From NCBI GenBank assembly GCA_021843755.1, contig JAKBWB010000071.1, positions 62,001-126,000 of the forward strand: a stretch of 64,000 nucleotides of DNA, written 5' to 3'. A model generated the notes under the pieces. The model did no database searches, was not told where the DNA came from, and saw only the letters and a list, made by a program, of their open reading frames with translations. This DNA is from Pseudomonadota bacterium (GTDB taxonomy: Bacteria; Pseudomonadota; Gammaproteobacteria; Steroidobacterales; Steroidobacteraceae). The position numbers and the translations under genes were made by a program. Of the stretch, positions 5,639 to 63,686 are shown piece by piece. Numbering within the stretch: the first letter of the stretch is position 1; each line of letters starts with the position of its first letter.

Positions 5639-6114
5639 CAAGGACCCAGCAGCGCGAACACGCTGGCCATCTCCAGCGCCGCCTCCATCGCCTCGGCACC
5701 CTTGTTGCCTGCGCCGGTGGCGGCCCGCTCGATGGCCTGCTCGACCGTATCGACCGTCAGCACGCCGAAGATCACCGGCACGCCGGTCTGCAACGCGACG
5801 CGCTGCAATCCCCCGGCGCACTCGCCGGCGACATACTCGAAATGCGGAGTACCACCGCGGATGATGCAACCGAGCGCCACGAGTGCATCATAGCGGCCAC
5901 TGGCGGCGAGCCGCCGCGCGGCCACCGGCAGCTCGAAGGCGCCGGGCACCCGCACCACCAGCAAGTCATCCAGCGTACCTCCGTGCGCCACCCAGGCCGC
6001 TTCGGCGCCCTTCAACAGGCTCGCAACGATGAAGTCGTTGAAGCGCGCCGCCACCAGCGCGACCTTGCGGCCCCGGGCGTCGAGCGGTCCTTCCAGCCGG
6101 TTCGGCCCGCTCAA
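5638..6114 (-). CDS. ribH: 6,7-dimethyl-8-ribityllumazine synthase RibH
   Basis: A 158-residue lumazine synthase that condenses 5-amino-6-ribitylaminouracil with 3,4-dihydroxybutanone phosphate, the penultimate riboflavin step. It shows the substrate-stacking aromatic in AARFNDF, the PGAFELP loop, the catalytic His91 in GGTPHFEYV, and the phosphate-binding GNKGAEA motif near the C terminus. The start is a TTG overlapping the stop of the upstream rib gene as TTGA, placed just after a GGGGAGGA ribosome-binding site. No ATG is available nearby. Coupling to both neighbours suggests tightly matched expression in the rib operon. Confidence 0.96.
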
Positions 6115-7277
6115 GCGTCCTCCCCGACGTAGCTGTCGATCTCGAGACCGAAAGCGGCGATCCCGTGGATCTGCTTCGGAGCAGACAGGACGCGCATGCG
6201 CTTGACCCCGAGGTCCTTCAGGATCTGCGCGCCGATGCCAAAGGTCTTGAGCACCTGTCCATCCCGGTGGGCGGCACGCGCCGTCGCGTCCGCTCCGGCA
6301 GGCGGCGTCAATCCGCGCAGCGCATCGAGCAGATCGTTCGGCGCTTCGCGCTCGCGCAGAATCACGATCACCCCGCTGCCCGCCCGGGCAATACGTTCCA
6401 TGGCAGCCCGCAGTGTCCAGGCGAGCGGATCGGCGCGGATACCGAGCAGGTCGCGCAGCGGATCTGCCAGGTGCACGCGAACCAGCGGCCGGGCATCCGT
6501 CGCGATCTCGCCTCTGACCAGCGCCAAGTGCACCTCGTCGCTGATCCGATTCTCATAGGCGTAGAGGCGGAATTCTCCGAACTCGGTCTGGACCGGCTGT
6601 TCCGCAACGCGCTGGACGGATCGCTCGTTGCGCAACCGGTAGCGAATCAAGTCGGCGATGGTGCCGATTTTCAGCCCATGACGTACCGCGAACGCATGCA
6701 AGTCCTGGTGCCGCGCCATTGACCCATCGTCGTTCATCAGCTCGCAGATCACGCCCACCGGCTGCATTCCGGCGAGCCGGCACAGATCGACCGCCGCTTC
6801 CGTGTGCCCCGTGCGCACGAGCACGCCACCCCGGCGCGCGCGCAGGGGGAAAATGTGCCCGGGACGGGTGAAATCCGTGACCCGCGAGTCGGGACGCGCG
6901 AGGGTGCGGATGGTCTGCGCTCGGTCGCTGGAAGACACGCCGGTCGTCGTTCCGGAGACGGCATCCACGGAGACTGTGAAGGCGGTTCGATGCGACTCGC
7001 TGTTGTTCGCGACCATTTGCGGCAGTTCGAGCCGCTCCAGCCATTCCTCTTCCATGGGCACACAGAGAATCCCGCTGGTATGCCGAATCATGAATGCCAC
7101 GCTCTGCGGGGTCGCCCGCTCGGCCGCCATGATCAAATCGCCCTCGTTCTCCCGTTCCTCATCGTCCATGATGATGACCATTCGCCCCGCCCTGAGGTCA
7201 TCGAGGATCTCCTCGACGGTATTGAACGGCCCACCGGCGGAGGGCGTCTTGCCGGCCAGAGGAAGGACTTTGGACAT
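6111..7277 (-). CDS. ribB: 3,4-dihydroxy-2-butanone 4-phosphate synthase with degenerate GTP cyclohydrolase II domain (RibBX type)
   Basis: A 388-residue RibBA-shaped protein. The N-terminal ~205 residues are an intact RibB: acidic loop [10 protein letters not shown] (38-47), a [12 protein letters not shown] segment, [12 protein letters not shown] and GHTEAAVDL. This half makes 3,4-dihydroxybutanone phosphate from ribulose 5-phosphate. The C-terminal half aligns with GTP cyclohydrolase II in outline ([22 protein letters not shown]), but the three zinc cysteines (SEC and RCDC in RibA) are gone. It should therefore not hydrolyse GTP. Such RibBX proteins are known in Proteobacteria, and a separate ribA must exist elsewhere. 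I chose the ATG at 7277; an 18-codon upstream extension has no support. Confidence 0.93.
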
Positions 7278-7358
7278 CGTATGCGTCTGCTGCCTGGATT
7301 CCGGGCAGTATAGCGTGCGGGCCGCCGGCATCGTGCGACCGCCGCGCCAGCCGCGCGG

Positions 7359-7904
7359 CTAACGCGTCAGCGTCGCCAGAAGCGGGAGAACCTGCCGCTG
7401 CAGCCGGCGCCGGGAAAGGGCCGCGAGGCCCCCGACCCATCGCGCCCGTACGATCCCGTGTGCCCCAATGACATAGGTCACGGGAATGGCCTGGGGCTCC
7501 CCGAACCCGTCCTGGCTCGCCGCGCTCGCCAGCGCCGCCGGGAACGTGAACTCGCGCATGAGGCGGCGCACACGGCCGGCACCGGCGGGTGTATCGATGC
7601 TCAGGCCGAGCACGACGAGTCCCCGCCGCTCATAGCGTCGATAAAACGCCTCCAGCAGTGGCATCTCCGCCCGGCAGGGCGAGCACCAGGTCGCCCAGAA
7701 ATTCAGCACAACCACGTGGCCGCGCTCGCGGGCCAGATCGAATTCGCGCCCGTCGAGTTCGCGCACGATCAACGGCGGGGCCGGCTGGCCGATACGCACC
7801 GCCGCATGGGCGCGCGGCCCGAGCAGCGCCGCCGTCAGCACGAGCAGCGCCAACGGCACGATCCGTGTGCGCATGAATGTCCCGGTCGGCTGGCGTCGCG
7901 GCAT
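7359..7904 (-). CDS. TlpA/ResA-type periplasmic thioredoxin
   Basis: A protein of up to 181 residues with an N-terminal signal peptide (hydrophobic stretch about residues 15-34, ending AHA) and a thioredoxin fold of the AhpC-TSA/Redoxin TlpA group. The redox motif is WCSPC with Cys74 and Cys77, set in LNFWATWC. The cis-proline loop is IPVTYVI. It should act as a membrane-anchored or free thiol-disulfide reductant in the periplasm, as in cytochrome c or sulfur chemistry; the substrate is unknown. It begins 9 bases after the ribE stop. An ATG 10 codons in (7874) would give a more typical signal peptide. Its place inside a riboflavin operon has no obvious biochemical logic. Confidence 0.9.
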   Translation of the reverse strand: MPRRQPTGTFMRTRIVPLALLVLTAALLGPRAHAAVRIGQPAPPLIVRELDGREFDLARERGHVVVLNFWATWCSPCRAEMPLLEAFYRRYERRGLVVLGLSIDTPAGAGRVRRLMREFTFPAALASAASQDGFGEPQAIPVTYVIGAHGIVRARWVGGLAALSRRRLQRQVLPLLATLTR

Positions 7905-49364: not shown

Positions 49365-50536
49365 GCGGACCGGGGAGCCTGCAGCCCGCCCGGCGGTCGG
49401 CGCCGGCGGACTACCACGCACGCATTCGCGTTCTGATCGTGGACGACTCGGCGCTGGTGCGCCGGCTGCTCACCGAGATGCTGAGCGCCGCGGCGGACAT
49501 CGAAGTCGTTGGCGCGGCGGCCGACGCCCACGCGGCGCGCGAGAAAATCAAGCAACTCAATCCCGACGTGCTCACGCTCGATGTGGAAATGCCGCGCATG
49601 GACGGCATCACGTTTCTGCGCAATCTCATGCGCCTGCGGCCCATGCCGGTGGTCATGGTCTCCTCGCTGACCGAGCGCGGCGCGGATGTGACGCTCGAGG
49701 CGCTGGCGCTCGGGGCCGTCGATTACCTGCCGAAGCCCAAGCTCGACCTCGCCGCGACTTTCACCGACTACCGCGCCGAGCTCATCGAGAAAATCCGCAC
49801 CGCCGCGAGCGCCAGCGTGCGCGCGCTCGACCCGGGCCGCATGCCTGGCGCGGCCGTACCGGCCCACAGCGTCGGGGCGGTGCCGCCTCGCAACCGAGGG
49901 TTGCCGCAGCTGCGCACCACCCACCGCATCATCGCGATCGGCGCCTCGACCGGCGGGACCGAGGCGATCAAGGCGGTGCTCACGCGCCTGCCACCGGACA
50001 GCCCCGGCGTAGTCATCGCCCAGCATATTCCCAAGGCATTCAGCGGCCCCTTCGCGCGCCGCCTGAATGACCGCTGCTCCGTATCCGTGTGCGAGGCCGA
50101 GGATGGACAGCAGATTCTCGCCGGCCACGTCTACATCGCCCCGGGCAACCGGCATCTGCTGGTCGCGCGCGATGGCACACGCTACCTCTGCCGGCTCGAT
50201 GACGGTGTGCCGGTCAATCGCCACAAGCCCTCGGTCGACGTCCTGTTTCGCTCCGTCGCCGAGAACGTCGGCTGCAATGCGATCGGCGTCCTCCTGACGG
50301 GGATGGGCAAGGATGGCGCCCGGGGCCTGAAGGAGATGCTCGAAGGTGGCAGCCGCACGATCGCCCAGGACGAGGCCAGCAGCGTCGTGTGGGGCATGCC
50401 CGGCGAGGCGGTCGCGCTGGGTGCGGCACAGCATGTCCTGCCGCTCGATCAGATCGCCGCCATGGCCCGCACGCTCGCCGACGCAATGGACCTCACGCGT
50501 GCGCCGCCGCCGGCTCACGGCGCGAGCCCGAGCTGA
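49361..50536 (+). CDS. cheB: Chemotaxis methylesterase CheB
   Basis: A 391-residue CheB. The receiver domain (about 20-140) has Asp28/Asp29 and the phospho-acceptor Asp74 ([10 protein letters not shown]). The esterase domain (about 195-375) contains the catalytic Ser in [13 protein letters not shown], His in IAQHIP and Asp in GMGKDGARG. It removes methyl groups from MCPs. It closes the che operon. Confidence 0.97.
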
Positions 50537-50563
50537 CCGAACGGGGATTTTCCGCCTGCGCCA

Positions 50564-50590
50564 TCAAGTCTGCGCCGCGGCTGCCGATAA
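50564..50590 (+). promoter_or_regulatory. Sigma-28 (FliA) promoter before the HDOD genes
   Basis: TCAAGTCT-N11-GCCGATAA matches the flagellar sigma-28 consensus TAAAGTTT-N11-GCCGATAA, with a perfect -10 and correct spacing. It lies 26 bases before the GTG start of the first HDOD gene. It links these genes to FliA. Confidence 0.85.
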
Positions 50591-50616
50591 GCACAGGGTA
50601 TGAAAAGGCCCCGATC

Positions 50617-51504
50617 GTGAGCATTCCCGCCCAGCAACTGCCCGCCGCCGAGGGCGGCAATGCGGACGGCTTCGCCTTCGTCAAGGCGCTCGCCGCCGAG
50701 CTGTCCAACGGCAAGGTCGACCTGCCGAGCTTCCCGGACATCGCCCTGCGCGTGCGCCAGGTGCTCTCGGACGAGGAGGTCTCGCAGGAGAAAGTGGTAC
50801 GCGTGATCGGCTCGGAGCCGATGCTGGCGGCCCGGCTGCTGCAGATCGCCAACTCCGCGGCCATAAACTACAGCGGCCGCCCGATCACCGAGCTGCGCAC
50901 GGCGATCGCCCGGCTTGGATTCAACATGGTGCGCAGCGCCGCGATCGCCTTCGCGATGTCGCAGCTGAAAAAGAGCGATGCCCTGAAGGGACTCGAGCAA
51001 CCGCTCGACGATCTGTGGCAAACCAGCGCCGCGGTCGCCGCGATGTCGTACGTGGTCGCCAAGCGCTTCAGCCGCGTCAATCCGGACACCGCGATGCTCG
51101 CCGGCCTGCTGCATGGCATCGGCCGTCTCTACATCCTGACGCGCGTCACGCGCTATCCGGGACTGTTGGCCGATCAGGGCGTCTACAGCGGCATCGTGCG
51201 CGAGTGGCACACGCCGATCGCCCAGGCGCTGCTCGAGAACTGGGAGATGGCCGAGGAGATCATCTCGGCCGTCAGCAACTACGAGGATCTCGAACGCAAA
51301 CATCTCGGTCCGCCCGACCTCACCGACGTGCTCACCGTGAGCCATCTGCTGAGCGCTTTCAAGGACCACCCCGACACGCTGGAGCTGAACATGCACGACG
51401 TCACCGCGTGCCGGCGCCTGCAGATCGACACCTCCGGCTACCAGCAGCTGATCGAGGAATCGCAGCACGAGATCGACGCTCTGCGCGACGCCCTCGGCGT
51501 CTGA
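50617..51504 (+). CDS. HDOD domain protein 1
   Basis: A 295-residue protein whose HDOD domain (about 30-225) has LPSFPDIALRVRQVL, GSEPMLAARLLQIANSA and LGFNMVRSAAIAFA as landmarks. The catalytic His-Asp pair of true HD phosphohydrolases is missing (LLHGIGRLY instead of HDIGK), so it should be a non-enzymatic signalling adaptor. The start is a GTG after AAAAGG. HDOD proteins often act in motility or c-di-GMP signalling, which fits the sigma-28 promoter. Confidence 0.92.
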   Translation: MSIPAQQLPAAEGGNADGFAFVKALAAELSNGKVDLPSFPDIALRVRQVLSDEEVSQEKVVRVIGSEPMLAARLLQIANSAAINYSGRPITELRTAIARLGFNMVRSAAIAFAMSQLKKSDALKGLEQPLDDLWQTSAAVAAMSYVVAKRFSRVNPDTAMLAGLLHGIGRLYILTRVTRYPGLLADQGVYSGIVREWHTPIAQALLENWEMAEEIISAVSNYEDLERKHLGPPDLTDVLTVSHLLSAFKDHPDTLELNMHDVTACRRLQIDTSGYQQLIEESQHEIDALRDALGV

Positions 51505-51531
51505 GGCGCACCCCAAGAGCGCTCCCCGCCG

Positions 51532-52431
51532 ATGCAATCGCAATTCGACTCCGACGCCATCATGAGCCGCGGCACGCCCGGGGCGCCGGATCAGGATATC
51601 GCCTTCGGATTCGTGCGGGAGCTCGCCACCGAGCTGTCGGACGGCAAAGTGGAGCTTCCCGGCTTTCCGCGCATCGTCATGCGCGTGCAGCGGGTGCTCA
51701 GCGATCCGGCCGCCGATCTTGACCGTATCCTGCGTGTCATCGGCAGCGAACCGGTGCTGGCAACGCAACTGGTGCGCATGGCCAATTCGGCCGCGCTCAA
51801 CCCCTGCGGTCCGCGGGTCGCCGATCTGCGCGCCGCGGTGGCCCGTGTCGGGCTCGACACCGTGCGCTCCGCGACCATCGCCTTCGCGCTGCGCCAGTTG
51901 CAGGCCGCGCCGGCGCTGCGCGGTCTCGAGGCGCAGCTCGGGGAGTTGTGGCGGCGGGGCGTGAACGTCGCGAGCCTCAGTTTCGTCATCGCCCGGCGAC
52001 TGACCACGGTGATGGCGGACACGGCGCTGCTCGCCGGGCTTCTCCAGGGTGTCGGCAAACTCTACATTCTGACGCGCGCGAGCCGCCACCGATCCCTGTT
52101 TCATGATGCGGCCGAATACGCGGCCATCGAGCGAGCCTGGCACCTGAGCATCGCCGCGGCGCTGCTCGAGAACTGGGGCATGGCCGAGGAGATCGTCCAG
52201 GCCGTGCAGGAGTCGGAGAACTACGAGCGAGATGCGCGCGGCGCGCCGGCGCTCGCCGATGCGCTGCTCGCCGGCACGTTGCTCGCCGACTGTGACGACA
52301 CCGCGGTGCTGTCCGAACGCATCGCCGCAGCCAAGCCCCTGCAACGGTTGCAACTCGATGAGCCGGCCTGCGGGACCCTGCTTGCCGAATCCGCCCAGGA
52401 GATCGCCGCGTTGCGTGCAGCGCTGGGATAG
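51532..52431 (+). CDS. HDOD domain protein 2, tandem paralogue
   Basis: A 299-residue HDOD protein clearly duplicated from the preceding gene: LPGFPRIVMRVQRVL, GSEPVLATQLVRMANSA and LLQGVGKLYILTR line up with its neighbour. It too lacks the metal-binding His-Asp. An 11-residue further ATG exists (51562), but the ATG at 51532 fits spacing. The pair is 27 bases apart and probably co-transcribed from the sigma-28 promoter. Confidence 0.9.
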   Translation: MQSQFDSDAIMSRGTPGAPDQDIAFGFVRELATELSDGKVELPGFPRIVMRVQRVLSDPAADLDRILRVIGSEPVLATQLVRMANSAALNPCGPRVADLRAAVARVGLDTVRSATIAFALRQLQAAPALRGLEAQLGELWRRGVNVASLSFVIARRLTTVMADTALLAGLLQGVGKLYILTRASRHRSLFHDAAEYAAIERAWHLSIAAALLENWGMAEEIVQAVQESENYERDARGAPALADALLAGTLLADCDDTAVLSERIAAAKPLQRLQLDEPACGTLLAESAQEIAALRAALG

Positions 52432-52704: not shown

Positions 52705-55455
52705 ATGCGGTTGCGGACACCGGTTTGGGCCATGCTCTGCTCGTTGGCAAGCTTCTGTCTGTCGTCGGCGGCATTGGCGCGCAGCCTGCCGAGCGTGGGC
52801 TTCTATTACGGCGGCGGTGCCGCACCCGCCGCCTTCCGCGATTTCCACTGGGTAGTGGTCGATCCGGGCCGGCGGCGCCTGCCGCGCGATTTCGCTTCCC
52901 GGCAGAAAGTCTTTGCGTACGCCAGCATGGGCGAAACGACGCCGGGCAACCCGCGCTATGCAGGATTGCCCGGCGGCTGCGTCCTCGGCCGCGACACGGT
53001 CTGGGGGGGCAGGATCATCGACCTGGCGCGCCATGAATGCCGGGAGTACCTGCTGCACCGCATCATCGATCCACTCTGGAAGCAAGGCTATCGCGGATTC
53101 TTTCTGGATGCGCTCGATTCCTACCAGAGGCTCGTGCACGGCGCTCGGGCGCGCGCCGCCGAGCAAACCGGCCTCGTGCGGCTCATCAGGTCCATCGAGG
53201 CGGCCCATCCCGGCGCGGCGCTGATTGCCAACCGCGGATTCTCGGTCCTCGCCCGGGTACACCGCGATCTGGTCGGTGTGGTGGCGGAGTCGCTGTTTCA
53301 CGGCTGGAGTCAACGCAGCAAAACGTATCGTCGGGTGCCCGCGCCCGCGCGCCGCGCATTGATCCGCCAGTTGCGCCGGGTACGCGCCTATGGATTGCCC
53401 GCCATCGTGGTCGACTACTTGCCGGCGCGGCTGGATCGGCGCGGCTGGTGGCAGGACGCCCGCAGGATCGCGGGCATGGGATTCGTGCCGTACGTCACCA
53501 ATGGCCACCTCACGGCCGTCGGCGCGGGATTGCGCGAGCCGATGCCGCGGCATGTGCTGATCCTTTACAACAGCGCGCACGCGCAGCAGTACAGTCTGGC
53601 CTTCGCCGACGGCGCCATGCCGCTGGAGTACCTCGGATACATCCCCGTCTTCAGCCGCCTCTCCCGGAGCCTGCCCGCCAGGCCGACAGCGGGCGAGTAC
53701 GCCGGGATCATCGTCTGGGACGACCTCGGTCGCCGCGACGACGCCGGCGGCCTCTCATCCTGGCTGCGGGCGGCTCGAGCCGCGGGTATCCCGCTGCTGC
53801 TGCTGCAGAATTTCCCCGACGATCTGGATCGGGGCGCGTATCGCGCCCTGGGGATGAGCCCGCCGCACTCCCGGAGCGTCGCGGGCGTGACGATCGAGCG
53901 CGCGGCCGCCGCGATGAATTACGAGGCGCGGGTCCGGCCGAACCGGCGGGACTTTCTTCAGGTTGCCGCGCCGAGCGGCAGCCGCCTCTGGCTGCGGCTG
54001 CGCAGCGACTCGGGAGCGGTGGAGGACGCCGCCGCGATCACTCCGTGGGGCGGCTATGTCCTGCCGCCCTATCTGCTCACCGCTCTGCCCGACGGCAAGA
54101 TGCGCTGGCTGGTCGATCCCTTCCGCCTGTACCGGGCGGCGTTGCATCTGCCGCGCATGCCCGTCCCGGACACCACCACGGAAAGCGGGCGACGGCTCTT
54201 CATGGCCCACACCGACGGTGACGGCTTCCTCAGTCGCGCCCAATTCCCGCCGTATCACATCGCCGGTGAGGTCTACATGCACCGGATCGTGGAGCGCTAC
54301 AAGCTGCCCTTCACCGGCTCGGTCATCGTCGGGGACCTGTTGCCCGGGAATCGCGGCTTGTACCCCGCCCTGGCGCCCCTGGGCACCGAAGTCGCGCGGC
54401 GACTGTTCCGTCTGCCCTATGTCGAGATCGGCTCGCACATGTGGTCGCATCCATTCGACTGGCCGGCCATAGAGTCGGGCCGCACTCTGCCCGGCAACAA
54501 CCTGCCGGTGCCCGGCTACACATTCAGTCCCTACATGGAGGCGGTCGGCGCCGCGCGCTGGATCGATGCACATCTGGCGCCCCCCGGCAAGCGGGTGGTC
54601 ATAGACCAGTGGTCGGGAGACTGTGATCCGGATGCCCAGGTGGTGGGTCTGGCCTACCGCGCCGGACTGATGAACATCAACGGCGGCACCGCTTACATCA
54701 GCCGCAGGAATCCCACCCTCACCGCGGTACCGCCCATCGGTATCTTCCGCGGCAAGTGGCTGCAGGTCTTCGCCCCCGACGCCAACGAGGACTACTTCAC
54801 CAACCTGTGGCATGGTCCGTACTGGGGCTACATCAACGTCATCCAGACCTTCGAGATGACCGACAGGCCTCACCGGCTCAAGCCGATCGACATCTACACG
54901 CATTGGTATTCGGGCAGCACGCTCGCGTCTCTGGCGGCCGTCAACAAGGTCTACCGCTGGGTGCTGAAGCGGCCGATCACGCCGATTTACGCCGCCAATT
55001 ACGCTCATATCGTCGAGAATTTCTTCGCCATCCACATCGCCCGGCAGGGCAACGGCTTCTGGATCGGCGGCGCCGATGCCCTGCGCGAGCTGCGCATGCC
55101 CAAGTCGCTGGGCACGCCCGCCATGGCCCGCAGCCAGGGTATCGCCGGTTATGACGACAGCCCCAATGGCAGGCTCTACGTGCACATGGACGGACAGCCT
55201 TCGGTGCGGCTCGCTCTGCGGCATACCCCGACCCGGACACCTTATATTGTCAGCGCCAACGCGCCGATCGCGTCCGTCGCCGCGACGGCCACGGCATTCA
55301 CCGCCCGTGTGCACGGCCATGTGCCGGTTCGGCTTCGCCTCGCCAACATCCGCACGTGCCGTGTCGAGTTCAACGGGCATCCGGCCAGTCCCGGCCCCGC
55401 CGGACAATTTGCGAGCCCGGACCGCGATGTGATCGTCCATGTACGCTGCCCCTGA
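52705..55455 (+). CDS. pelA: Pel exopolysaccharide hydrolase/deacetylase PelA
   Basis: A 916-residue periplasmic two-enzyme protein (948 in Pseudomonas aeruginosa). A signal peptide spans about 1-25. The N-terminal glycoside hydrolase has Asp135 (FLDALD) and Glu195 (VVAESLFHGW). A deacetylase domain follows, with Asp504/Asp506 in HTDGDGF and His578/His582 in SHMWSHPFDW. All of these sit at a constant 22-25 residue offset from the known P. aeruginosa catalytic residues. PelA partly deacetylates and can cut the Pel polymer. ATG 52705 opens the pel operon. Confidence 0.95.
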   Translation: MRLRTPVWAMLCSLASFCLSSAALARSLPSVGFYYGGGAAPAAFRDFHWVVVDPGRRRLPRDFASRQKVFAYASMGETTPGNPRYAGLPGGCVLGRDTVWGGRIIDLARHECREYLLHRIIDPLWKQGYRGFFLDALDSYQRLVHGARARAAEQTGLVRLIRSIEAAHPGAALIANRGFSVLARVHRDLVGVVAESLFHGWSQRSKTYRRVPAPARRALIRQLRRVRAYGLPAIVVDYLPARLDRRGWWQDARRIAGMGFVPYVTNGHLTAVGAGLREPMPRHVLILYNSAHAQQYSLAFADGAMPLEYLGYIPVFSRLSRSLPARPTAGEYAGIIVWDDLGRRDDAGGLSSWLRAARAAGIPLLLLQNFPDDLDRGAYRALGMSPPHSRSVAGVTIERAAAAMNYEARVRPNRRDFLQVAAPSGSRLWLRLRSDSGAVEDAAAITPWGGYVLPPYLLTALPDGKMRWLVDPFRLYRAALHLPRMPVPDTTTESGRRLFMAHTDGDGFLSRAQFPPYHIAGEVYMHRIVERYKLPFTGSVIVGDLLPGNRGLYPALAPLGTEVARRLFRLPYVEIGSHMWSHPFDWPAIESGRTLPGNNLPVPGYTFSPYMEAVGAARWIDAHLAPPGKRVVIDQWSGDCDPDAQVVGLAYRAGLMNINGGTAYISRRNPTLTAVPPIGIFRGKWLQVFAPDANEDYFTNLWHGPYWGYINVIQTFEMTDRPHRLKPIDIYTHWYSGSTLASLAAVNKVYRWVLKRPITPIYAANYAHIVENFFAIHIARQGNGFWIGGADALRELRMPKSLGTPAMARSQGIAGYDDSPNGRLYVHMDGQPSVRLALRHTPTRTPYIVSANAPIASVAATATAFTARVHGHVPVRLRLANIRTCRVEFNGHPASPGPAGQFASPDRDVIVHVRCP

Positions 55456-56284
55456 TCATGCTGACCCCGGGCACGGCCGCCTGCTGCGCCCGGCCGGGCT
55501 GTTGCTGTTCGCCGCGGCGGTGCTGGCCGTCATTCTCGCCGTGGCGTGGCAGTACGGCTGGCATGGCGGTCTCGCCTTCCGGCAATCCGCGGCGCAGGCG
55601 CGGGCCCGTCTGCAAAGCGCCACGTTGCTGCTCGGCAGCGGCCAGTATCGCGCCGCGGAGGCGCAGTTGGCGCCGGTGCTGCGCGATCCGCGCAGCCGCC
55701 TCTATCGCGCCGCCCTGCTCACGCGCTGGCACATCGAGCTGACCGAGGCCTTCGCGCATGCGCCGGGCGCAGCGCCACGCCGGCGGGCGATGCGGCGCCT
55801 GCGGTCGCTGCTCGGCCAACTCGTCGAGGCAGGCCGCTGGCCGGCGGCGCAGTGGCGCCGCCTGGCCCGCGAAGCCTTCGCCATCGGAGCCTATGCGCTC
55901 AGCGCCAAGGCCTGGTTGGCCGCGGCCCGGAGCGACCCGGCGAGCGCCCGCCAGGATCGGGAACGGGCGGCCCGGGCTTGGGCGGCGGACGGCCGCAGTG
56001 CGCAGGGCGGGCGGCTGCTGTTGGCCCTGGCGGCGCGCAGTCACGATCCGGTGCGGCAAAGGACTTTCTTTCTGCAAGGCATGGGCTGGCTCGAAGGGGA
56101 CGGGGGAGCGGTTGCCGCCCTGTCCGCCGGACAGGCGACCCTGGCGCATCTGCCCGGTCTGTGGCGGGATCGGACCATCGTACTGTTCATGGCGCGGCTC
56201 GCCCTGGCAGCCGGCCAACCGCAGCGCGCCTCCCGATGGCTGAGTGCCGCGCTGGAGCATCGGCCCGTGGAGTCACGGCGATGA
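55439..56284 (+). CDS. PelB-like N-terminal part: membrane-anchored helical-repeat protein
   Basis: A 281-residue protein with a TM helix at about residues 18-38 and then helical repeats with TPR character (for example SATLLLGSGQYRAAEAQLAPVL and LAARSHDPVRQRTFF). It overlaps pelA by 17 bases and the next gene by four. PelB of Pseudomonas begins with one membrane helix followed by TPRs, so this is probably the inner-membrane-proximal part of a split PelB. It is not PelE, which is found later in the operon. Sequence similarity alone is too weak to be certain. Confidence 0.6.
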   Translation: MYAAPDHADPGHGRLLRPAGLLLFAAAVLAVILAVAWQYGWHGGLAFRQSAAQARARLQSATLLLGSGQYRAAEAQLAPVLRDPRSRLYRAALLTRWHIELTEAFAHAPGAAPRRRAMRRLRSLLGQLVEAGRWPAAQWRRLAREAFAIGAYALSAKAWLAAARSDPASARQDRERAARAWAADGRSAQGGRLLLALAARSHDPVRQRTFFLQGMGWLEGDGGAVAALSAGQATLAHLPGLWRDRTIVLFMARLALAAGQPQRASRWLSAALEHRPVESRR

Positions 56285-57933
56285 GACCTAAAGGCTGGAC
56301 GCTGTGCGCCGGCGCGCTGCTCTCAGCGGTCGCTCTGGCCCACGGCGCGCGCGTCCCCGCCGATTGGTGGAACGCGGCGGGGAGCCTGGCGCCGCACGAC
56401 GCCGCATGGCGGGCCAGATACCTGCGGCACAAGGAGTATGCCAATCACTTCGCGATCGAACTCGAGAAGCGCCGCAACGGCGGTAAGCGGCTCGGCTATC
56501 TGCAAGACGGCGGCGTCTCCCCCTCCTGGTACCGGGCACCGCGGCCGCTCACACCCTTCCCGGGGCGTTATTCGGCCAGACTCTATGAGCTGGCCTACAC
56601 GGCATTTTTGCAGAGTCACCGACTCTCTGCCGCATACCGCCTCGCCTATACCGCCGTCATCCGGCGACCCAACGACATCATCTGGCGCCACCGGTTGATC
56701 CGGGTGGCCCTGTGGCTCGGCCAGCGGACCGAAGCGCTGCAACAGTGGCGTTGGCTCGCCGAGCACGGTGATCGGCGCGCCTTCGCGAAGACGCTACAGC
56801 TGGCCCTGGACTTGTCCAAACCGCGCCTCGTCGTGCGGCTGCTCGCGCCGCGGGCCAGATCCGGACAGCTCGATCATGCCGACTGGAAGTCGTTGATCTT
56901 CGCCTATGGCGCGCTGGCCGAGCCCGGCAAGTCCCTGGCGGCCATCGACGCGGATCTGAAGCGCTTCGGCCCCAATCGTTATCTGCTCGAGCAAAGCGCC
57001 TACCTCGCCTACCAGTTGGGAGACGTCGCGCGCAGCCTGCGGGCCCTGCGGCGCATCGCCGCGGTCTATCGGCCAACGCCGGGTTTGGCGCTGCAGGAAG
57101 CTCAACTTCTGTCCCTGCAGGGCCACGATCGGCGGGCCTTCGCGGCCATGGAGCGGGTGCGCCGGGACGCCGCCCCGACGAACGTGCCGTTCTGGAGGCT
57201 GTATGCCGCGTTGGCCTGGAACCTGCACGACGATCCGGCGGCCTTTCGCGCGCAAAAGACCTTGTACTTGCTGGGCGTGTCGCGCCAAGAGGATCTGCTG
57301 CGCCTGGTGGCGCTGACCGGCCCGCACGATCCCACCGCGGCGCTCGCCGTGGCTGAAACGGGCTGGCGGCGCTTTCGGGCCCCGACCTTCTACTTCGAGA
57401 GCCTTGCCTACGCCGCACGCGCCGGACAGTGGACCGAGCTCGGCACGCTGCTGCGCGCCGCCGCTGCGCGCGCCCCGCGGGATCGGCGCGGTTATCCGGC
57501 CTATTGGCTGGCCCTGGCGAAATGGGGCAGCGCGCGCGGTGATGCCGCGCTCGCCGGCTATGCCTATGCCGAGGCGATCCGGCTCGAGCCCAAGGACGCG
57601 GCGGTGCAAGCCCGTCTGCTGTGGATGCTGATCGACTCCGATCAGCGGCGGACCCTGCGAGCCTTGCTCAGTGGTCAACGCCTGCGTCCGCCGGCAGCCC
57701 TGCGCGGGGCCGTGCGCGCCGCCCTGGAGCGCCTCGGTCTGGCGCGCCAGGCGCTGCGGCTGACCGGCGCGAACCGGCACTCACGGTCGCCCGACCCGCA
57801 TGCGCTCCTCGCCCGCGCCTGGCTCTGGCAGGACAGCGGCCATCCCGGTCTCGCCTGGTCTCTGCGGCGCATGGCCGCCGCCCAGAGCGTGCGCGCGCTG
57901 GCGGGCTCACACGCGGCGGGAACGCGGCGGTGA
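56281..57933 (+). CDS. PelB-like middle part: exported TPR protein
   Basis: A 550-residue protein with a signal peptide (about 1-22, ALAHG) and, from about residue 95, a series of TPR-like repeats (RLYELAYTAFLQSHRLSAAYRLAYTAVI is the clearest). It matches the periplasmic TPR scaffold of PelB that binds PelA. I used the ATG at 56281, which overlaps the previous stop (ATGA); the longer frame upstream is a shadow of the previous gene. The next gene overlaps by GTGA. Confidence 0.7.
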   Translation: MRPKGWTLCAGALLSAVALAHGARVPADWWNAAGSLAPHDAAWRARYLRHKEYANHFAIELEKRRNGGKRLGYLQDGGVSPSWYRAPRPLTPFPGRYSARLYELAYTAFLQSHRLSAAYRLAYTAVIRRPNDIIWRHRLIRVALWLGQRTEALQQWRWLAEHGDRRAFAKTLQLALDLSKPRLVVRLLAPRARSGQLDHADWKSLIFAYGALAEPGKSLAAIDADLKRFGPNRYLLEQSAYLAYQLGDVARSLRALRRIAAVYRPTPGLALQEAQLLSLQGHDRRAFAAMERVRRDAAPTNVPFWRLYAALAWNLHDDPAAFRAQKTLYLLGVSRQEDLLRLVALTGPHDPTAALAVAETGWRRFRAPTFYFESLAYAARAGQWTELGTLLRAAAARAPRDRRGYPAYWLALAKWGSARGDAALAGYAYAEAIRLEPKDAAVQARLLWMLIDSDQRRTLRALLSGQRLRPPAALRGAVRAALERLGLARQALRLTGANRHSRSPDPHALLARAWLWQDSGHPGLAWSLRRMAAAQSVRALAGSHAAGTRR

Positions 57934-59435
57934 GTCCCGCAACGAGCAATGTACTGTGGCTGCTCGGCCTTGGCGTCATGCTCGTGGCAATGAGCGCGCC
58001 GGCCGCCGCGGCCGCCCCCGCCCGGATCGCGGCCCCGCGGGGCACCTCGACGAGGGCCGCACATGCGGTACGGACCGGATCGGCCGCGCCGCGGTGCACC
58101 TCGCCCGGCGCCGCCGCCAACCGCGCGCTGCTCGACCTGGCGGCCAGCCTGGCCGCCACGCCGAGCGAGGGCAACTTTACGCGCCGGACGTTGTTCGCCG
58201 CCGCGCGCTGCGGCGATGATCTGCCGGCCCTCTCCTGGAGCCTCGCGCAGGATCACTGGCGCTTGGCACAACGGCTGATCAACGGCAATCCCCGCCCGCC
58301 CCCGCGCTGGGTCCGGCTCAGCCTGGCCCTGCATCGGCGCGATCTGACCGAACTCGCCCGCCTGCTCCAGCGCCCCGCCGGTCTCGCCCCGGACGATCGA
58401 GTGCGGGCGCAGATGGATCTCGGCCGCTACCGGCAGGCCCGCCGCGACGCGTTGCGCGCGCTGCGGATCGATCCCTGGGATCGCGCGCTGCGCCGGGAAT
58501 ATCTGCAGGCGGTGCGCCGCAGCGCCAGTTACCTCGACCTGCAGGGGAGTTGGCACAGCTTCGATGGGCTGCAACTCTATGGGTCGCGCCTGCGGGCGCG
58601 GCTGTCGCTCGCTGATCACTGGGGCGTGCTCCTCGACGCCGACACCTTGGCGCGCGCGGCGGCGACCCGCGCCGCGATCGCGGCGGGATCCCCCTGGAGC
58701 AGCCGCGCGCTGGTTGGATTCTTCTGGCAGGATCCGCGGTGGAGGATTCGGGTCCAGGCCGGACAGTACGCGGCCCTACGCAATAATTTCACTGCGCGGG
58801 TCGAGGCGTTGTGGCGCGCAACGAGCGGCGGGGCGCTGTCGGCGGTCGGAGACTATCACGCCCGCAGCTTCGAGAGTCCCGCCCTGGCCCTCGGCGGCAT
58901 GGTCGATCGCGCCGGCCTCGAGTGGACGCAACGGCTCGGCCGGTGGACGGACAGTCTCGGTCTGGGTTGGAGGCGGTATTTGGGGCAGGACGGCATCGCC
59001 GTTGGTCAGGATCATTTCGTCGAGGCCGCCGCGATGTGGGGCCACGCGCTCGGTCCCTGGGAACTGCAGGCTGGACCGTTTGCCGACTACCACGCGCTGA
59101 GGCGGCGGCGGGCGGTGACCGGAGTGCTGGCCGGGCTGCTCCCGCCGGGGGAGCACGGCCCGGATCTGCTGCTGTCCGGCAGCTATGCCGACGCGGGCGT
59201 GCGGCTGCAGTGGGCGGCGTGGCGGCGCGCCCTGGACGCCGCCTGGACTCCTTATCTCACGCTCAGTGTTTACGAGAACACGCGCTACGGTCCGGAATAT
59301 CAGCTTGGCGCGGGGATCAGCACCCCGATTCTCGGGCCGGACCGGCTGCGCATCGGCTTCGCCCAGGGGCAGAGCGATCACGCTCTGGCACTGACGCAAC
59401 GAATCATCAAGATCGGCTACCGATACTACTTCTGA
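57930..59435 (+). CDS. pelB: PelB-like C-terminal part: outer-membrane beta-barrel
   Basis: A 501-residue protein with its own signal peptide (about 1-29, SAPAAAAA), a short TPR-like part (about 80-185), and a C-terminal ~310-residue region of alternating short strands (SYLDLQGSWHSFDGLQLYGSRL, LDAAWTPYLTLSVYENTRYG) that ends in the aromatic YRYYF expected for outer-membrane barrels. This corresponds to the porin through which Pel leaves the cell. The start is a GTG. It is the most PelB-like of the three pieces. Confidence 0.8.
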   Translation: MSPATSNVLWLLGLGVMLVAMSAPAAAAAPARIAAPRGTSTRAAHAVRTGSAAPRCTSPGAAANRALLDLAASLAATPSEGNFTRRTLFAAARCGDDLPALSWSLAQDHWRLAQRLINGNPRPPPRWVRLSLALHRRDLTELARLLQRPAGLAPDDRVRAQMDLGRYRQARRDALRALRIDPWDRALRREYLQAVRRSASYLDLQGSWHSFDGLQLYGSRLRARLSLADHWGVLLDADTLARAAATRAAIAAGSPWSSRALVGFFWQDPRWRIRVQAGQYAALRNNFTARVEALWRATSGGALSAVGDYHARSFESPALALGGMVDRAGLEWTQRLGRWTDSLGLGWRRYLGQDGIAVGQDHFVEAAAMWGHALGPWELQAGPFADYHALRRRRAVTGVLAGLLPPGEHGPDLLLSGSYADAGVRLQWAAWRRALDAAWTPYLTLSVYENTRYGPEYQLGAGISTPILGPDRLRIGFAQGQSDHALALTQRIIKIGYRYYF

Positions 59436-59460
59436 CGGGCTGTTTCCAAGGGGACATGAC

Positions 59461-59994
59461 ATGAATCGCGGCAAATTGCTGGTTCCAACCATCGTGCTGG
59501 TGATGCTGGCGGGCTGTGCCGGCATGAACATCCAGGCGCAACGCCCGCTCAGGCCCGCCGCGGACACGGCGTGGGCCGTCCTGCCGTTCGCCAACAACAC
59601 CGAGACACCGGTCGCCAACGCACGGGCCGCGGCCCTGGCGGCGGGCCTTCTGCAAAGCGACGGCCATCGCGTACTGGGAACTCTGCCGATCAGCAGCCGG
59701 CCGCAGGCTCTGCTCGGCGGCGACTGGCGGCGGGATTACACCCGGGCCCTGGCCGCCGCGCGCGCCGCCGGCGCCCGCTATGCCCTGGGGGGCAGCGTCG
59801 AGCAGTGGAGCTATCGCGCCGGAATCAACGCCGAACCGGAGGTGTCATTGACCCTCTGGGTTGTCGATGTGCCCAGCGGGACCGTCATCTGGAGCGGGGT
59901 CGGCAGCGCCCACGGCGGCAGCCTGGGACGATCCGGCACGGCCGCAGTCGCCCAACACCTCATCCACCGGCTGCTCGCCCGCGCCCTGCAGTGA
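59461..59994 (+). CDS. pelC: Pel outer-membrane lipoprotein PelC
   Basis: A 177-residue lipoprotein with lipobox MLAGC (Cys19). The mature fold begins AWAVLPFANNTETPVA and includes ARYALGGSVEQW and LTLWVVDVPSGTVIW, as in PelC, which forms a dodecameric electronegative ring under the PelB barrel. Length matches (172 in Pseudomonas). It lies 25 bases after the barrel gene. Confidence 0.93.
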   Translation: MNRGKLLVPTIVLVMLAGCAGMNIQAQRPLRPAADTAWAVLPFANNTETPVANARAAALAAGLLQSDGHRVLGTLPISSRPQALLGGDWRRDYTRALAAARAAGARYALGGSVEQWSYRAGINAEPEVSLTLWVVDVPSGTVIWSGVGSAHGGSLGRSGTAAVAQHLIHRLLARALQ

Positions 59995-59998
59995 ACCG

Positions 59999-61285
59999 AT
60001 GCGAGTCCTCACTGCCATTGCGCGTCGCGGGCACGGCTGGCTGGAGGCCCTCCTCCTTCCGGCCCTCGCCGTGCTGCTGACGCGGCTGCTCGATCCCGGC
60101 GACCCGCTGTTGCTGCGCCAGCCGTTTCCCTGGCTGCTCGTCATCCCGTTGCTGATCGCGCTGCGCTACGAGTTCCTGCCCGCCCTGCTCTCGAGCCTGG
60201 TACTGGCGAGCACCTTCCTCTGGCACCCCTATCCCGCATCCGAGGCCCTGACGGTTTGCGCCGGCGTTGTGCTGGTGGCCCTGATCGCCGCAGAGTTCGC
60301 CTCCTACTGGTCGCGCCGCGAGGCGGGCCGGGGCCTGCAGGATCAGATCACGGCCACCCGGCTGCGGCAGCTCGCCGACGATCTGTACGTCACCCGCGTT
60401 TCCCTCGATCGCCTGGAGCAGAGCCTGCTGTACCAACCGGTTTCGGCACGCAGCGCGCTGCAGGAACTGCAGCGCGCGCTGGCCGCCGCCGAAGGCGAGT
60501 TCGGTCAGAGCGTCCTGTCCCGTTTCCTTTACTTCCTCAACCAATTGACCGGCGTGCAGCGTGCCGCCTGGTATCGGTTCGAGCGGGGCGAGACGCAGCC
60601 GCAGCCGCTGGCGGCCCTGGGCGAGGGCTCGGGTTGGCAACCCGATGATCCGGTCCTGCGCGCGGCCCTCGCGGCGGGCGAAAGCCGGTGTCTGGCCGAT
60701 CTCGATCTGAGCCGCGTTGAGCACTACCTCGCCGTCCATGTACACGCCGACAGCGACGCCGAACGGCAGATCCTGTGCATCGAGGACATGTCGTTCTTCG
60801 CAATCAACCGGGAGCAGCTGCAGGTCGTCGAAGTGCTGTTCCAATACCTGTGCGGCTATCGCGCCGCCGTGCTGCGCGCTCGCCCCTTGTGCACGCAGTG
60901 GCCGGACTGTCCGGTCGAGTTTGCAACCGTGCTGTTGCAGCTCGAGCGCATGGCGCGGCTCGTGCCGCAAGCCGGCATGCTCATCCGCCACGAATTCCAA
61001 CCCGGGGACGACGCGGAGCAGATCGTTGCCCGTACTCAAAACCTGCGCCGCGGCATGGACATGCTCTGGGTGCATCGACAGCCCGGCCGGCTCCTCATGA
61101 TCGCCCTGCTCCCCTTTGCCGGCGCGAGCGCCGCAGAGGGCTATCTGAGCCGCATCGAAGGCGAGCAGCGCAAGTATCATGCCGAATCCTGGGCCAGGGC
61201 CTTCCTCGCCCATCACCTGTTCAGGGTCGATGCACGCGATGCCGCCGTGCAGCTGCGCGAGGCTCTCGCGCCGGGGGGTGGGTGA
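59999..61285 (+). CDS. pelD: Pel c-di-GMP receptor PelD
   Basis: A 428-residue inner-membrane protein. Four TM helices lie in residues ~15-100, then a GAF-like domain (about 150-295) and a degenerate GGDEF domain. An RxxD pattern, RGMD, occurs at 351-354, at the relative position of the inhibitory-site Arg367/Asp370 of Pseudomonas PelD; Arg385 could be the second contact. Binding of c-di-GMP is therefore plausible and would switch on polymer synthesis. ATG 59999; stop overlaps pelE (TGATG). Confidence 0.9.
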   Translation: MRVLTAIARRGHGWLEALLLPALAVLLTRLLDPGDPLLLRQPFPWLLVIPLLIALRYEFLPALLSSLVLASTFLWHPYPASEALTVCAGVVLVALIAAEFASYWSRREAGRGLQDQITATRLRQLADDLYVTRVSLDRLEQSLLYQPVSARSALQELQRALAAAEGEFGQSVLSRFLYFLNQLTGVQRAAWYRFERGETQPQPLAALGEGSGWQPDDPVLRAALAAGESRCLADLDLSRVEHYLAVHVHADSDAERQILCIEDMSFFAINREQLQVVEVLFQYLCGYRAAVLRARPLCTQWPDCPVEFATVLLQLERMARLVPQAGMLIRHEFQPGDDAEQIVARTQNLRRGMDMLWVHRQPGRLLMIALLPFAGASAAEGYLSRIEGEQRKYHAESWARAFLAHHLFRVDARDAAVQLREALAPGGG

Positions 61286-62202
61286 TGACGCTCCTCGCAC
61301 TCGTCGTTGCCGATCTTCTCTGCACGCTCCTGGCCGTGCTGTCGGCCTCGCTCCTGACCCCCGTGGCGCCCGGGGCGCGCAGGGTGTTCAGCACGGTACT
61401 GTATCTGGTGATGGCGCTGGCGATGCCGTTCATCGGAGCGATTCTGATCGTCGCATACGCCGCGGCCCTGCGCAGCGTGCACCGCAAGATCGATCGAGCC
61501 GAGGTGGAGCCGATCCATGTGCCGCCCGCGGCGCGGGATTTTCGCCTGCAGCCCTCCGCCGCCGCGCCCGGCGGCATTGCCGGGCGCCTCGCCGGCTCAC
61601 GCGATCCGCGCCAGCGGGTGGCGGCGCTCTCCCAGATCGCCAGTTCCCGATTCTTCGACCAGTATCGTCTGCTGCGCGCGGCGCTGAAAGACGAGGCCGA
61701 AGAGGTGCGGCTGTTGGCCTACGCCGCCCTCGATCAGCGCGAGCATGAAAACACGGAACTGCTCATCGGCCTGCGGCGCCAGATCGATGCGGCCGGGGAT
61801 ACGCGCCGGCTGCATCGCCTGCGCGGCTATCACGCATGGCTGCAATGGAGCATCGATCACTCGGCCGCAAGAGAGATGGCCGCTCCGAGCGCACGGACGC
61901 AGGAACCTGCGCGCGCTCCCGCGCCGAACGACGGCCGGGACGACGCCGGGGATGCAACGTTGCCGTTGCTTGCCGGGCTGCGTCACCTGGAAACCGGCAA
62001 CACCGTCCAGGCCGTGGCGGCACTTCTCGAGGCGCGGCGCCGCGGCGCCGGGGGAGCGATCGTCGCGCCCCATCTGGCGGCGGCTTATTACGCCGAAAAG
62101 GACATTCCCGCGTTGCGCCGGCTGTACGCCGAGCATCCCGAACTGCGCTTGTCGGCCCGCTACGGCCCGTCCCACCGATTCTGGCTGGGCTCCTGCTCAT
62201 GA
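61285..62202 (+). CDS. pelE: Pel inner-membrane protein PelE
   Basis: A 305-residue protein with two TM helices (about 3-25 and 37-60) and a cytoplasmic helical-repeat region with LLAYAALDQREHENTELL and a TPR-like segment near 230-290. This matches PelE, which joins PelD and PelG in the inner-membrane complex. It overlaps pelD by one base and pelF by four. The long frame upstream is a shadow of pelD. Confidence 0.88.
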   Translation: MTLLALVVADLLCTLLAVLSASLLTPVAPGARRVFSTVLYLVMALAMPFIGAILIVAYAAALRSVHRKIDRAEVEPIHVPPAARDFRLQPSAAAPGGIAGRLAGSRDPRQRVAALSQIASSRFFDQYRLLRAALKDEAEEVRLLAYAALDQREHENTELLIGLRRQIDAAGDTRRLHRLRGYHAWLQWSIDHSAAREMAAPSARTQEPARAPAPNDGRDDAGDATLPLLAGLRHLETGNTVQAVAALLEARRRGAGGAIVAPHLAAAYYAEKDIPALRRLYAEHPELRLSARYGPSHRFWLGSCS

Positions 62203-63686
62203 TCAACAAGGGCGCCCGATCCGTCGATGTGCTGCTCCTGCTCGAGGGCACCTTCCCCTACGTCCGGGGCGGGGTCTCCGCCTGGGTCAATCACCTGATT
62301 GAGGGCTGCTCCGACCTGCGCTTCGGTGTCATTTTTCTCGGCAGCGCGCGCCAGGACTATCGCGGCACCCCGTACGCCTTGCCCGCCAATGTCGAGTACT
62401 ACGCGGAGTATTTCCTGTTCGACGCGCCCGCGCGCACCACGGGCGGCCGAGGCGGCGCCGCGCAGCTCGATGCCGTGCGCTCCGGGCATGCGCAGATGCG
62501 CCAATGCATTGCCGGCGCGGACGCGCCCCTCGATCTGAGCCGCTGCAGCGCGAACTTCCACATCACCCACGAGGCGTTTCTGCAGGGCCGCGCGGCCTGG
62601 GACTATCTGCTCGAGTGCTATGCACGCATTCCCGATCAACCGCCGTTCGTCGATTATTTCTGGACCGTTCGCGGCATGCACGCTCCCCTGTGGGTCCTGC
62701 AGGCCGCCGTGGAGCGAGCCCCGCGGGCCCGGGTGCTGCACAGTCCTTCCACCGGCTATGCCGGTTATCTCGCCGCCGTGCTGAGCGATCGTTGGGCCCG
62801 GCCATTGATCATTTCCGAGCACGGAATCTATACCAAGGAAAGACGCCTGGACATGATGCGGGCAAGTTGGATCCACGAGGACGATGAATTCCTGCAGCGG
62901 CCCGGGCGGGTGCATCACCTGCGTCACCTCTGGATCGATTTTTTCGAGCTGCTGGGACGGGTGAGCTATCGGCAGGCCTGGCGGGTGGTCAACCTTTACG
63001 CGGGCATGGCCGCCGCGCAGATCAGTGACGGGGCCGACCCGGACAAGCTGACGACCATTCCCAACGGGGTCGCGGTCGAGCGATTCGTTCCCTGCCGCCG
63101 CTCCTTCCCCGAGCGCCGCAACATCGTCGCGCTGGTCGGTCGCGTGGTACCCATCAAGGACATCAAGACCTTCATCCGCGCCGCCGCACATCTGCGCGCG
63201 GACGGCCCCGCGCCGACCTTCTGGATCGTCGGTCCGACCGAGGAAGACGAGCAGTACCACGAGGAATGCCGCGTGCTGGTCGAGCACCTGGGCCTGGCGG
63301 AGCGGGTGCGATTCCGCGGCTTTCAATCGGTCGCCGAGGTGCTCGCCGAGGTTCGTCTGACCGTCTTGAGTTCCATCAGCGAAGCTCTGCCGCTGTCGGT
63401 CTTGGAGAGCTTCGCCGCCGGCGTCCCGGTGGTGACGACGGACGTCGGCTGCTGCCGCGAATTGCTCTATGGCGCCCCGGGTGCCTGCGATGCGCAGGCC
63501 GCCGGCCGTATCGTGCCGATCGCCGATCCGCACGCCCTGGCCGGCGCCGTCGAGACCCTGCTCGGCGATGAGTCCCTGTGGGCGCGCTGCAGCGGCAACG
63601 CCATCGCAAGGGTGGAGGCGCTCTACCGGGACACGCAGATGCTGGCACATTATCGCCACCTCTACCGGGAGGCGCTCGGGGTCTAA
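62199..63686 (+). CDS. pelF: Pel glycosyltransferase PelF (GT4)
   Basis: A 495-residue cytoplasmic GT-B glycosyltransferase that builds the GalNAc-rich chain from UDP-sugar. N-terminal LLLLEGTFPYVRGGVSAWV is diagnostic of PelF. The C-terminal GT4 domain has VGRVVPIKDIKTFIRAAAHL, and the EX7E motif in SISEALPLSVLESFAAG. I used the ATG at 62199, overlapping pelE (ATGA). Length matches the 507 residues in Pseudomonas. Confidence 0.96.
   Translation: MINKGARSVDVLLLLEGTFPYVRGGVSAWVNHLIEGCSDLRFGVIFLGSARQDYRGTPYALPANVEYYAEYFLFDAPARTTGGRGGAAQLDAVRSGHAQMRQCIAGADAPLDLSRCSANFHITHEAFLQGRAAWDYLLECYARIPDQPPFVDYFWTVRGMHAPLWVLQAAVERAPRARVLHSPSTGYAGYLAAVLSDRWARPLIISEHGIYTKERRLDMMRASWIHEDDEFLQRPGRVHHLRHLWIDFFELLGRVSYRQAWRVVNLYAGMAAAQISDGADPDKLTTIPNGVAVERFVPCRRSFPERRNIVALVGRVVPIKDIKTFIRAAAHLRADGPAPTFWIVGPTEEDEQYHEECRVLVEHLGLAERVRFRGFQSVAEVLAEVRLTVLSSISEALPLSVLESFAAGVPVVTTDVGCCRELLYGAPGACDAQAAGRIVPIADPHALAGAVETLLGDESLWARCSGNAIARVEALYRDTQMLAHYRHLYREALGV

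Follow-up and report, generated by a model that had tools for sequence, protein, structure and literature searches.

Pel is a biofilm sugar that is carried across the bacterial cell envelope by PelB. In the stretch of DNA considered here (the window: 64,000 nucleotides, nt, of a member of the Steroidobacteraceae, Gammaproteobacteria; assembly GCA_021843755.1, contig JAKBWB010000071.1, positions 62,001 to 126,000), the pelB position of a pel operon is occupied by three overlapping frames on the + strand, B1, B2 and B3, as seen from the open reading frames and their translations. Judged from sequence, three-part PelB is real, selected and family-wide, and B1–B3 very probably constitute a PelB in three pieces that acts in Pel export. 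An earlier reading of the window's letters (the original prediction) had described three frames in this position, linked by ATGA and GTGA start/stop overlaps, and both frames and overlaps are present exactly where it placed them:

55439..56284, + strand: B1, N-terminal part of PelB with a probable membrane anchor (ATG start, 281 aa)
56281..56284, + strand: ATGA overlap of B2 start and B1 stop (from the sequence; 4 nt in 16/16 three-gene loci)
56281..57933, + strand: B2, exported tetratricopeptide repeat (TPR) rod, the middle of PelB (ATG start, 550 aa)
57930..57933, + strand: GTGA overlap of B3 start and B2 stop (from the sequence; 4 nt in 12/16 loci, 8 nt in 4/16)
57930..59435, + strand: B3, exported pore part with leader, linker, TPR stub and 16-strand barrel (GTG start, 501 aa)

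Below, other genomes are designated by G numbers, and papers are cited by PMC number.

The three parts cover single-chain PelB

Each part was aligned from 16 loci and compared, profile against profile, with 12 single-chain PelBs. Positions are numbered as in the G970 PelB, residues 9–1200 of which match residues 11–1193 of Pseudomonas aeruginosa PelB (9h80) with 1211 bits; the residue numbers of the two agree within about ten. A profile comparison of this kind had been proposed as a check on the original prediction, and it sets the three parts in order: B1 (10–280) on PelB 8–284 (E 8.8e-21), B2 (96–532) on 280–717 (E 1.2e-50) and B3 (123–501) on 797–1198 (E 6.6e-33). Against eight two-gene PelBs the B3 alignment begins at residue 63, and therefore little is missing between the pieces. 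No significant profile alignment was found between B1 and either B2 or B3. At the level of profiles, these comparisons show that B1, B2 and B3 span single-chain PelB one after another, no region being represented twice. A single polypeptide of about 1190 residues is not what is found here; there are three frames in all 16 complete loci, and the system is therefore classed as a split PelB variant and not as standard PelB.

Properties of B1, B2 and B3

The leaders of the three parts were judged from hydropathy and cleavage motifs. In B1 the relevant feature is the following:

55490..55552, + strand: predicted membrane helix of B1, aa 18–38, with a possible cleavage motif AVA at aa 34–36 (AlphaFold2, hydropathy)

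The AlphaFold2 model of B1 (mean predicted local distance difference test score, pLDDT, 84.5) shows a helical-repeat domain preceded by a helix at residues 18–38, and this helix aligns with the one at the N-terminus of single-chain PelB. When the B1 profile was searched against the sequences of the Protein Data Bank (PDB), the sole match at E <= 0.01 was PelB (residues 110–240, E 1.3e-6). B1 contains a 19-residue hydrophobic stretch and, because its best 19-residue hydropathy in the 16 relatives (2.37–2.98) exceeds every one of the 32 leader values of B2 and B3 (1.23–2.03), B1 is likely to be anchored in the inner membrane. The signal peptides that the original prediction gave to B2 and B3 are borne out as signal-peptide-like stretches, whereas its membrane anchor for B1 can be called likely only: an Ala/Gly-X-Ala motif stands at residues 34–36 in 16/16 relatives, with an invariant Gly-Trp after it at residues 40–41 (also 16/16), and B1 could therefore be cleaved, which tells against the anchor. 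In this B1 is unlike 12 one-gene PelBs, whose N-terminal helix does not end in the strict motif; a cleavage site is reportedly lacking in P. aeruginosa PelB (PMC12141448).

B2 begins with a shorter, signal-peptide-like stretch, near which a strict Ala-X-Ala occurs in 13/16 relatives and in which no canonical lipobox was seen by eye. Pfam assigns TPR_15 to it (E 7.7e-44), as to 16/16 B2 members, and Sel1 is not among the Pfam families listed for B2. The first PDB match of the B2 profile is again PelB (9h80, residues 300–720, E 1.3e-26), followed by designed TPR proteins and the PelB entry 5wft. Between the leader and the first TPR lies an additional segment:

56350..56520, + strand: B2 N-terminal extension, aa 24–80, ~57 residues (among the fetched loci, in the three-gene clade only)

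The conservation of this extension is about that of the TPR core (mean majority 0.71 versus 0.70–0.72). Among the fetched loci, a profile of B2 residues 24–90 recovers 19 frames of the three-gene clade described below, including the re-fused ones, at E <= 1.6e-30, and, in the one- and two-gene loci, nothing below E 2 (the next frame has E 2.1); neither of the two fragments tried against Pfam matched a family. In the class sample the extension was detected in G000, G472 and the re-fused G312; one further match, in G442 (E 4.7e-4), lies within a 54-codon frame with a stop and is chance-like. A PDB match to 8zvk (whole-sequence E 5.9e-4) proved to consist of two 29-residue pieces with i-Evalues of 7.5 and 15, and is attributed to chance. 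The extension may act in docking or capping and so stand in for the lost covalent joint.

B3 can be divided as follows:

57930..58109, + strand: leader and disordered linker, aa 1–60 (helix 8–20, then no structure; pLDDT <50 for 1–55)
58110..58523, + strand: TPR stub and stalk, helices aa 61–198 (AlphaFold2; PelC-ring contact region by analogy)
58530..59429, + strand: 16-stranded beta barrel, aa 201–500 (AlphaFold2 model, 16 strands)

Its start, too, is a shorter, signal-peptide-like stretch (strict Ala-X-Ala nearby in 12/16 relatives). The PelB C-terminal barrel family PF24604 is found in B3 (E 5.8e-41) and in 16/16 B3 members, and the model (mean pLDDT 81.2) comprises a leader helix, a linker that ends near residue 60, nine helices up to residue 198 and sixteen strands. 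The best fold match in the PDB is 9h80_M, from the PelBC structure (E 2.4e-21, TM-score 0.78 by target length); next come BcsC entries and 4y25, which we take to be PgaA. In G614, G606, G615 and G621, B3 reaches 561 aa, about 60 residues more, most of them in the linker behind the leader, and it is in these four that B2 and B3 overlap by 8 nt, not 4. NCBIfam gave nothing useful for any of the three parts.

Conservation of the split

The survey of pel operons that had been proposed alongside the original prediction reveals the same split elsewhere: the three-gene layout recurs, far more consistently than chance would allow, in 16/16 complete three-gene loci, each with its leaders kept and with B1 and B2 overlapping by 4 nt, the start codons in this comparison being those nearest to the upstream stop, a choice that weighs somewhat against our interpretation. 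The junction count leaves aside G574, G620, G632, G616 and G618 (contig ends or, once, a masked run), G617, and the fused G607 and G312. One of the 16 loci belongs to Acidithiobacillus caldus ATCC 51756, here G623, whose contig 2 equals plasmid NZ_CP005987.1 over its first 15 kb (100%).

There is also evidence of constraint on each gene. The ratio of nonsynonymous to synonymous substitution rates (dN/dS) is <=0.39 in 26 of 27 values, obtained from nine pairs of relatives and three genes, the G472–G623 pair being near saturation at silent sites. The sole exception, a point that counts against us, is B1 between the window and G591, with 0.68 at a small dS of 0.08. These ratios show purifying selection acting on the sequences of B1, B2 and B3.

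Distribution of one-, two- and three-gene pelB

Three-part PelB is not peculiar to the window genome, and it extends a two-gene split that is present in other families of the class. For the census, barrel matches above the PF24604 cut-off were counted and gene number was taken from the fetched stretches. Such a barrel is found in 17/369 genomes of the class sample, 10/58 in the window's genus, 19/29 in the family of G472, which is Acidithiobacillaceae from its A. caldus member, and 16/398 in the phylum sample. In the class sample there are eight one-gene loci (including G546, its N-terminus cut), six two-gene, two three-gene and one undecided (G294); in the window's genus four are three-gene (G574 with B1 off the contig), five two-gene and one undecided (G583, B1 off the contig). 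The Acidithiobacillaceae contribute 13 complete three-gene loci, two with the B2/B3 break and B1 off the contig, one re-fused (G607) and three with barrel pieces only; the three-gene form is thus present in 15 of 16 loci with a readable B2/B3 joint. Three of the 16 phylum matches were already in other samples; the nine fetched comprise seven one-gene loci, an odd one (G980) and a cut one (G824), and G1003, G822, G812 and G942 (frames of 1309–1417 codons) are one-gene by frame length only. A PelA-like frame was found with phmmer in 42 of the 52 loci examined, the window included. A contig scan with six short exact peptides yielded one relative only.

Two-gene PelB occurs in the genus mates G146, G134, G571, G594 and G603, and in G550, G342, G400 and G424. 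In eight translated two-gene loci the first break lies at the same place, about PelB residue 280, with a 4-nt overlap, the starts having been set by hand and that of G342 placed later than originally listed. G456 is counted as two-gene although its second PelB gene is split over two frames within the TPR region, which is either an assembly slip or a further split. In G980 (reverse strand, 5900–7876) a PelB frame of 658 codons covers profile positions 634–1207 and adjoins a short PelA-like frame; no N-terminal part of PelB was found on that stretch, and G980 possibly represents a minimal Pel exporter.

Evolution and probable transfer of the operon

A PelA tree of 40 of the 42 PelA matches (G629 and G980 being too short) splits 14 one-gene rows from 26 two- or three-gene rows (support 98) and contains a 17-row clade (support 100) made up of all 15 three-gene rows and, nested among them, the two-gene G607 and G312. 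A B2 tree of 46 rows, with G294 and G546 in no group, has the same pattern (support 82 at the first split). The trees fit a B1/B2 break at about PelB 280 that is common to the two- and three-gene forms. With the root chosen by hand, a further point against our interpretation, this break may have been a fission or the one-gene form may be a fusion. The cheapest history, which the trees also fit, has one B2/B3 break (~720–795) in the ancestor of the three-gene clade and then two re-fusions. Two separate in-frame B2–B3 re-fusions are seen within that clade: in G607 the B2 tail and B3 leader are gone and the joint runs from TPR to TPR, and in G312 a long linker replaces the leader.

The window PelA nests in a clade of Acidithiobacillaceae and G312, and a tree constrained to unite it with the two-gene genus mates is rejected (approximately unbiased test, p-AU 5e-36, for a constraint group named after the tree was seen). 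An ATP-binding cassette (ABC) protein elsewhere in the window, which we take to be EttA-like, is 97–99% identical to that of three three-gene mates, 88–91% to those of G583, G594, G134, G146 and G571 (in which B2 and B3 are joined) and 61–66% to those of five Acidithiobacillaceae and G312; no full-length EttA-like match was found in G603. The pattern is reversed for the window PelF, with 60–64% identity to G623, G627, G472 and G312, 52% to G610 and 46–48% to six genus mates; the PelF of G614 is split on two contigs. In G591 the EttA-like protein and the pel operon lie on one contig, as in the window, and mis-binning is therefore unlikely. Because the operon nests in Acidithiobacillaceae while the genus mates carry the two-gene form, the sequences indicate that the whole pel operon, 52705–63686, was acquired horizontally from an Acidithiobacillaceae-like source.

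The pel operon of the window

The pelA–pelG context holds for the split PelB, in that pelA, the pelC position, pelD, the pelE position and pelF surround B1–B3:

52705..55455, + strand: pelA, PelA-like, with a GH114-like hydrolase domain (Pfam PF03537, E 5.3e-15)
59461..59994, + strand: pelC-position lipoprotein (weak LpoB match, E 2.6e-4, under cut-off; lipobox by eye)
59999..61285, + strand: pelD, cyclic di-GMP receptor, 428 aa (PF16963 PelD_GGDEF, E 1.4e-26 on the longer frame)
61282..62202, + strand: pelE-position gene (by position; tblastn match in 2/4 relatives)
62199..63686, + strand: pelF, GT4 glycosyltransferase (NF038011, E 1.5e-166)

The pelA gene sits upstream, in the position of the Pel deacetylase/hydrolase, and shares a 17-nt overlap with B1. 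The pelC-position gene is present at the same place in 4/4 relatives, the start of pelD was set by its G176 homologue, the pelE-position gene matches no Pfam family above the cut-off, and the pelG-position frame has only its start inside the window. Upstream of pelA, at 50389–52431, two tandem, mutually similar proteins are encoded, preceded by chemotaxis-cluster-like genes; judging by a motif, the two presumably resemble HDOD-domain signalling proteins.

A proposed mechanism

In P. aeruginosa, PelA contacts PelB at residues 332–436, and the TPRs resolved from residue 803, together with the stalk, sit inside the PelC ring; when those TPRs and the stalk are removed, PelC is not co-purified (PMC12141448). 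In the same work residues 762–802 are not resolved by cryo-electron microscopy, and an engineered PelB 762–1193 with a foreign signal peptide assembles with PelC (PMC12141448). That construct is much like B3, and the second natural break adjoins the 762–802 stretch. Given the PelA site at 332–436 and the PelC contacts from 803, the breaks would thus, judged by position, put the N-terminal helix on B1, the site for PelA on B2 and that for PelC on B3.

It is proposed that overlap-coupled translation would make B1, B2 and B3 together; that B1 would reside in the inner membrane with its repeats facing the periplasm; that B2 would be exported as a soluble TPR rod holding PelA; and that B3 would reach the outer membrane, providing the pore and placing its TPR stub within the PelC ring. 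B1, B2 and B3 might then dock end to end and so rebuild a periplasmic groove from the PelDEFG synthase to the pore. We regard such end-to-end docking as somewhat favoured. A fuller version, in which a self-assembling three-part conduit is used family-wide, anchor, PelA scaffold and PelC pore lie on separate chains, the covalent bridge between the membranes is dispensable and the clade-specific B2 extension is a new docking domain that arose to keep the parts together, is tentative, its chances falling a little below even.

Operons of this kind have been met before. A complete pelA–pelG operon was reported for A. caldus (PMC4331095), pel clusters in Acidithiobacillaceae are mentioned (PMC11021618, PMC6416229), and Pel is of consequence for the biofilms of A. 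thiooxidans, a pelD mutant of which has an altered, mechanically fragile biofilm (PMC5852609, PMC7825692).

Alternative explanations

If sequencing or assembly frameshifts had cut one pelB into three frames, a high-GC metagenome assembly, which may carry indels, would be a natural place to find the result, and the internal frame break in the second PelB gene of G456 is unexplained. However, both joints recur in every complete locus, in different genomes that include A. caldus ATCC 51756, and neither the export leaders of B2 and B3 nor the conserved extra domain of B2 is the product of an indel. A decaying pelB, its pieces being pseudogene remains, would accord with the fast evolution of B1 in the closest pair, but not with the other 26 dN/dS values, with frames that are intact family-wide or with later in-frame re-fusions. 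Because the layout and overlaps recur in 16/16 loci and dN/dS is low, frameshift and decay are both very unlikely, the former being scarcely conceivable and the latter only a shade less so; the original prediction had taken the codon overlaps and the separate signal peptides to argue against both, and the same frames in other assemblies uphold it. It might also be supposed that PelB has been shortened and that B1 and B2, lying between it and pelA, are insertions of unrelated TPR proteins, such proteins being common and alike and the neighbours of the B1 model being general TPR folds among the matches listed. Against this, the profiles of B1 and B2 match successive stretches of PelB, B1 has no significant profile alignment with B2 or B3, the best PDB sequence match of both profiles is PelB, and the two-gene relatives represent an intermediate state; we consider such an insertion highly improbable. 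The findings that had been named as refuting the original prediction, frames that join into one and first two proteins unrelated to PelB, thus came out in its favour.

A different kind of alternative, itself a sub-reading of three-part PelB that differs in geometry, is that the parts are loosely linked modules and not a continuous rod, B1 acting in the inner membrane as a synthase partner, B2 as a free carrier of PelA, and B3 with PelC as the pore. The breaks do separate known functions, with the PelA site in B2 and the PelC site in B3 (by reference to P. aeruginosa), B3 has a long variable linker behind its leader, and AlgK, the repeat protein of alginate export, is a separate chain from the pore (PMC9384988). 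On the other hand, in the G607 re-fusion one repeat runs straight into the next, as it would if the ends abutted, and the overlaps would suggest similar amounts of the parts. Loose modules are thus unlikely, though a good deal less so than the alternatives above.

Three-part PelB as such must be set against several observations that do not favour it, in addition to those given above. Pfam finds in B1 a sub-threshold TPR_19 alone (E 4.1e-4). The structural comparison envisaged for the original prediction gives 9h80_M as the best match of B3, but for B1 the Foldseek neighbours are general TPR proteins only among the 50 matches listed. The B3 profile has no match at E <= 0.01 among PDB sequences, and phmmer with B3 alone against the PDB gives chance matches only, although the fold search did find PelB. 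The functional link to A. thiooxidans runs through the genus only.

Significance

In P. aeruginosa, a single PelB chain has been proposed to form a bridge from one membrane to the other (PMC12141448). The natural two- and three-gene forms suggest that the bridge between the membranes need not be covalent and that the Pel channel can be assembled from parts. The breaks mark natural cut points, at ~280 and at ~720–795, the latter beside the 762–802 stretch, and make it possible to ask by experiment which joints carry the polymer. They also provide small natural constructs for structural work, B3 with PelC and B2 with PelA, from acidophilic mineral-oxidising bacteria. Where only the barrel gene is annotated as pelB, over half of the protein may be missed in such bacteria. 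The locus tags of A. caldus MTH-04 presumably rise in steps of five, and there would therefore be room for two genes between its pelA and pelB, in agreement with the present locus; the tags in question are A5904_RS00180 for pelA, RS00195 for pelB and RS00200 for pelC (PMC7237784).

Comparison with known systems

The original prediction held the architecture to be undescribed. This does not stand for the split as such, since 'pelB fission' in aquatic thermophilic species is already in print (legend to Fig. 5 iii, PMC7112194); as regards the three-part form, no text describing it was found among the matches listed, which covered the available parts of main texts and not figures or supplements. 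The legend resembles the present case in that pelB is split into more than one gene; in the available text, the species, the number of pieces, their ends, their leaders and their conservation are not named (PMC7112194).

P. aeruginosa PelB (9h80; PF24604) shares with the window what is, in B1, a probable N-terminal membrane helix, a TPR scaffold, a 16-strand barrel, pelA upstream and pelC downstream. It is, however, one chain of 1193 residues, whereas the window encodes three chains, two with their own export leaders, and of the two only the window form carries, at the start of B2, the ~57-residue domain. Two-gene PelB has the first break at ~280, a B1 with an N-terminal hydrophobic stretch and an exported second part, but its TPR rod and barrel form one chain of about 925–965 residues that lacks the B2 extension. 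In the AlgK–AlgE pair, as here, repeat scaffold and pore are on separate proteins; AlgK is a lipid-anchored outer-membrane protein with Sel1-like repeats (PMC9384988), whereas the TPRs of B2 are homologous to those of PelB. The exporters of cellulose (BcsC) and of poly-N-acetylglucosamine (PgaA) likewise combine a TPR scaffold with a 16-strand barrel, but they are single chains, are encoded in other operons and match the fold of B3 less well than PelB does.

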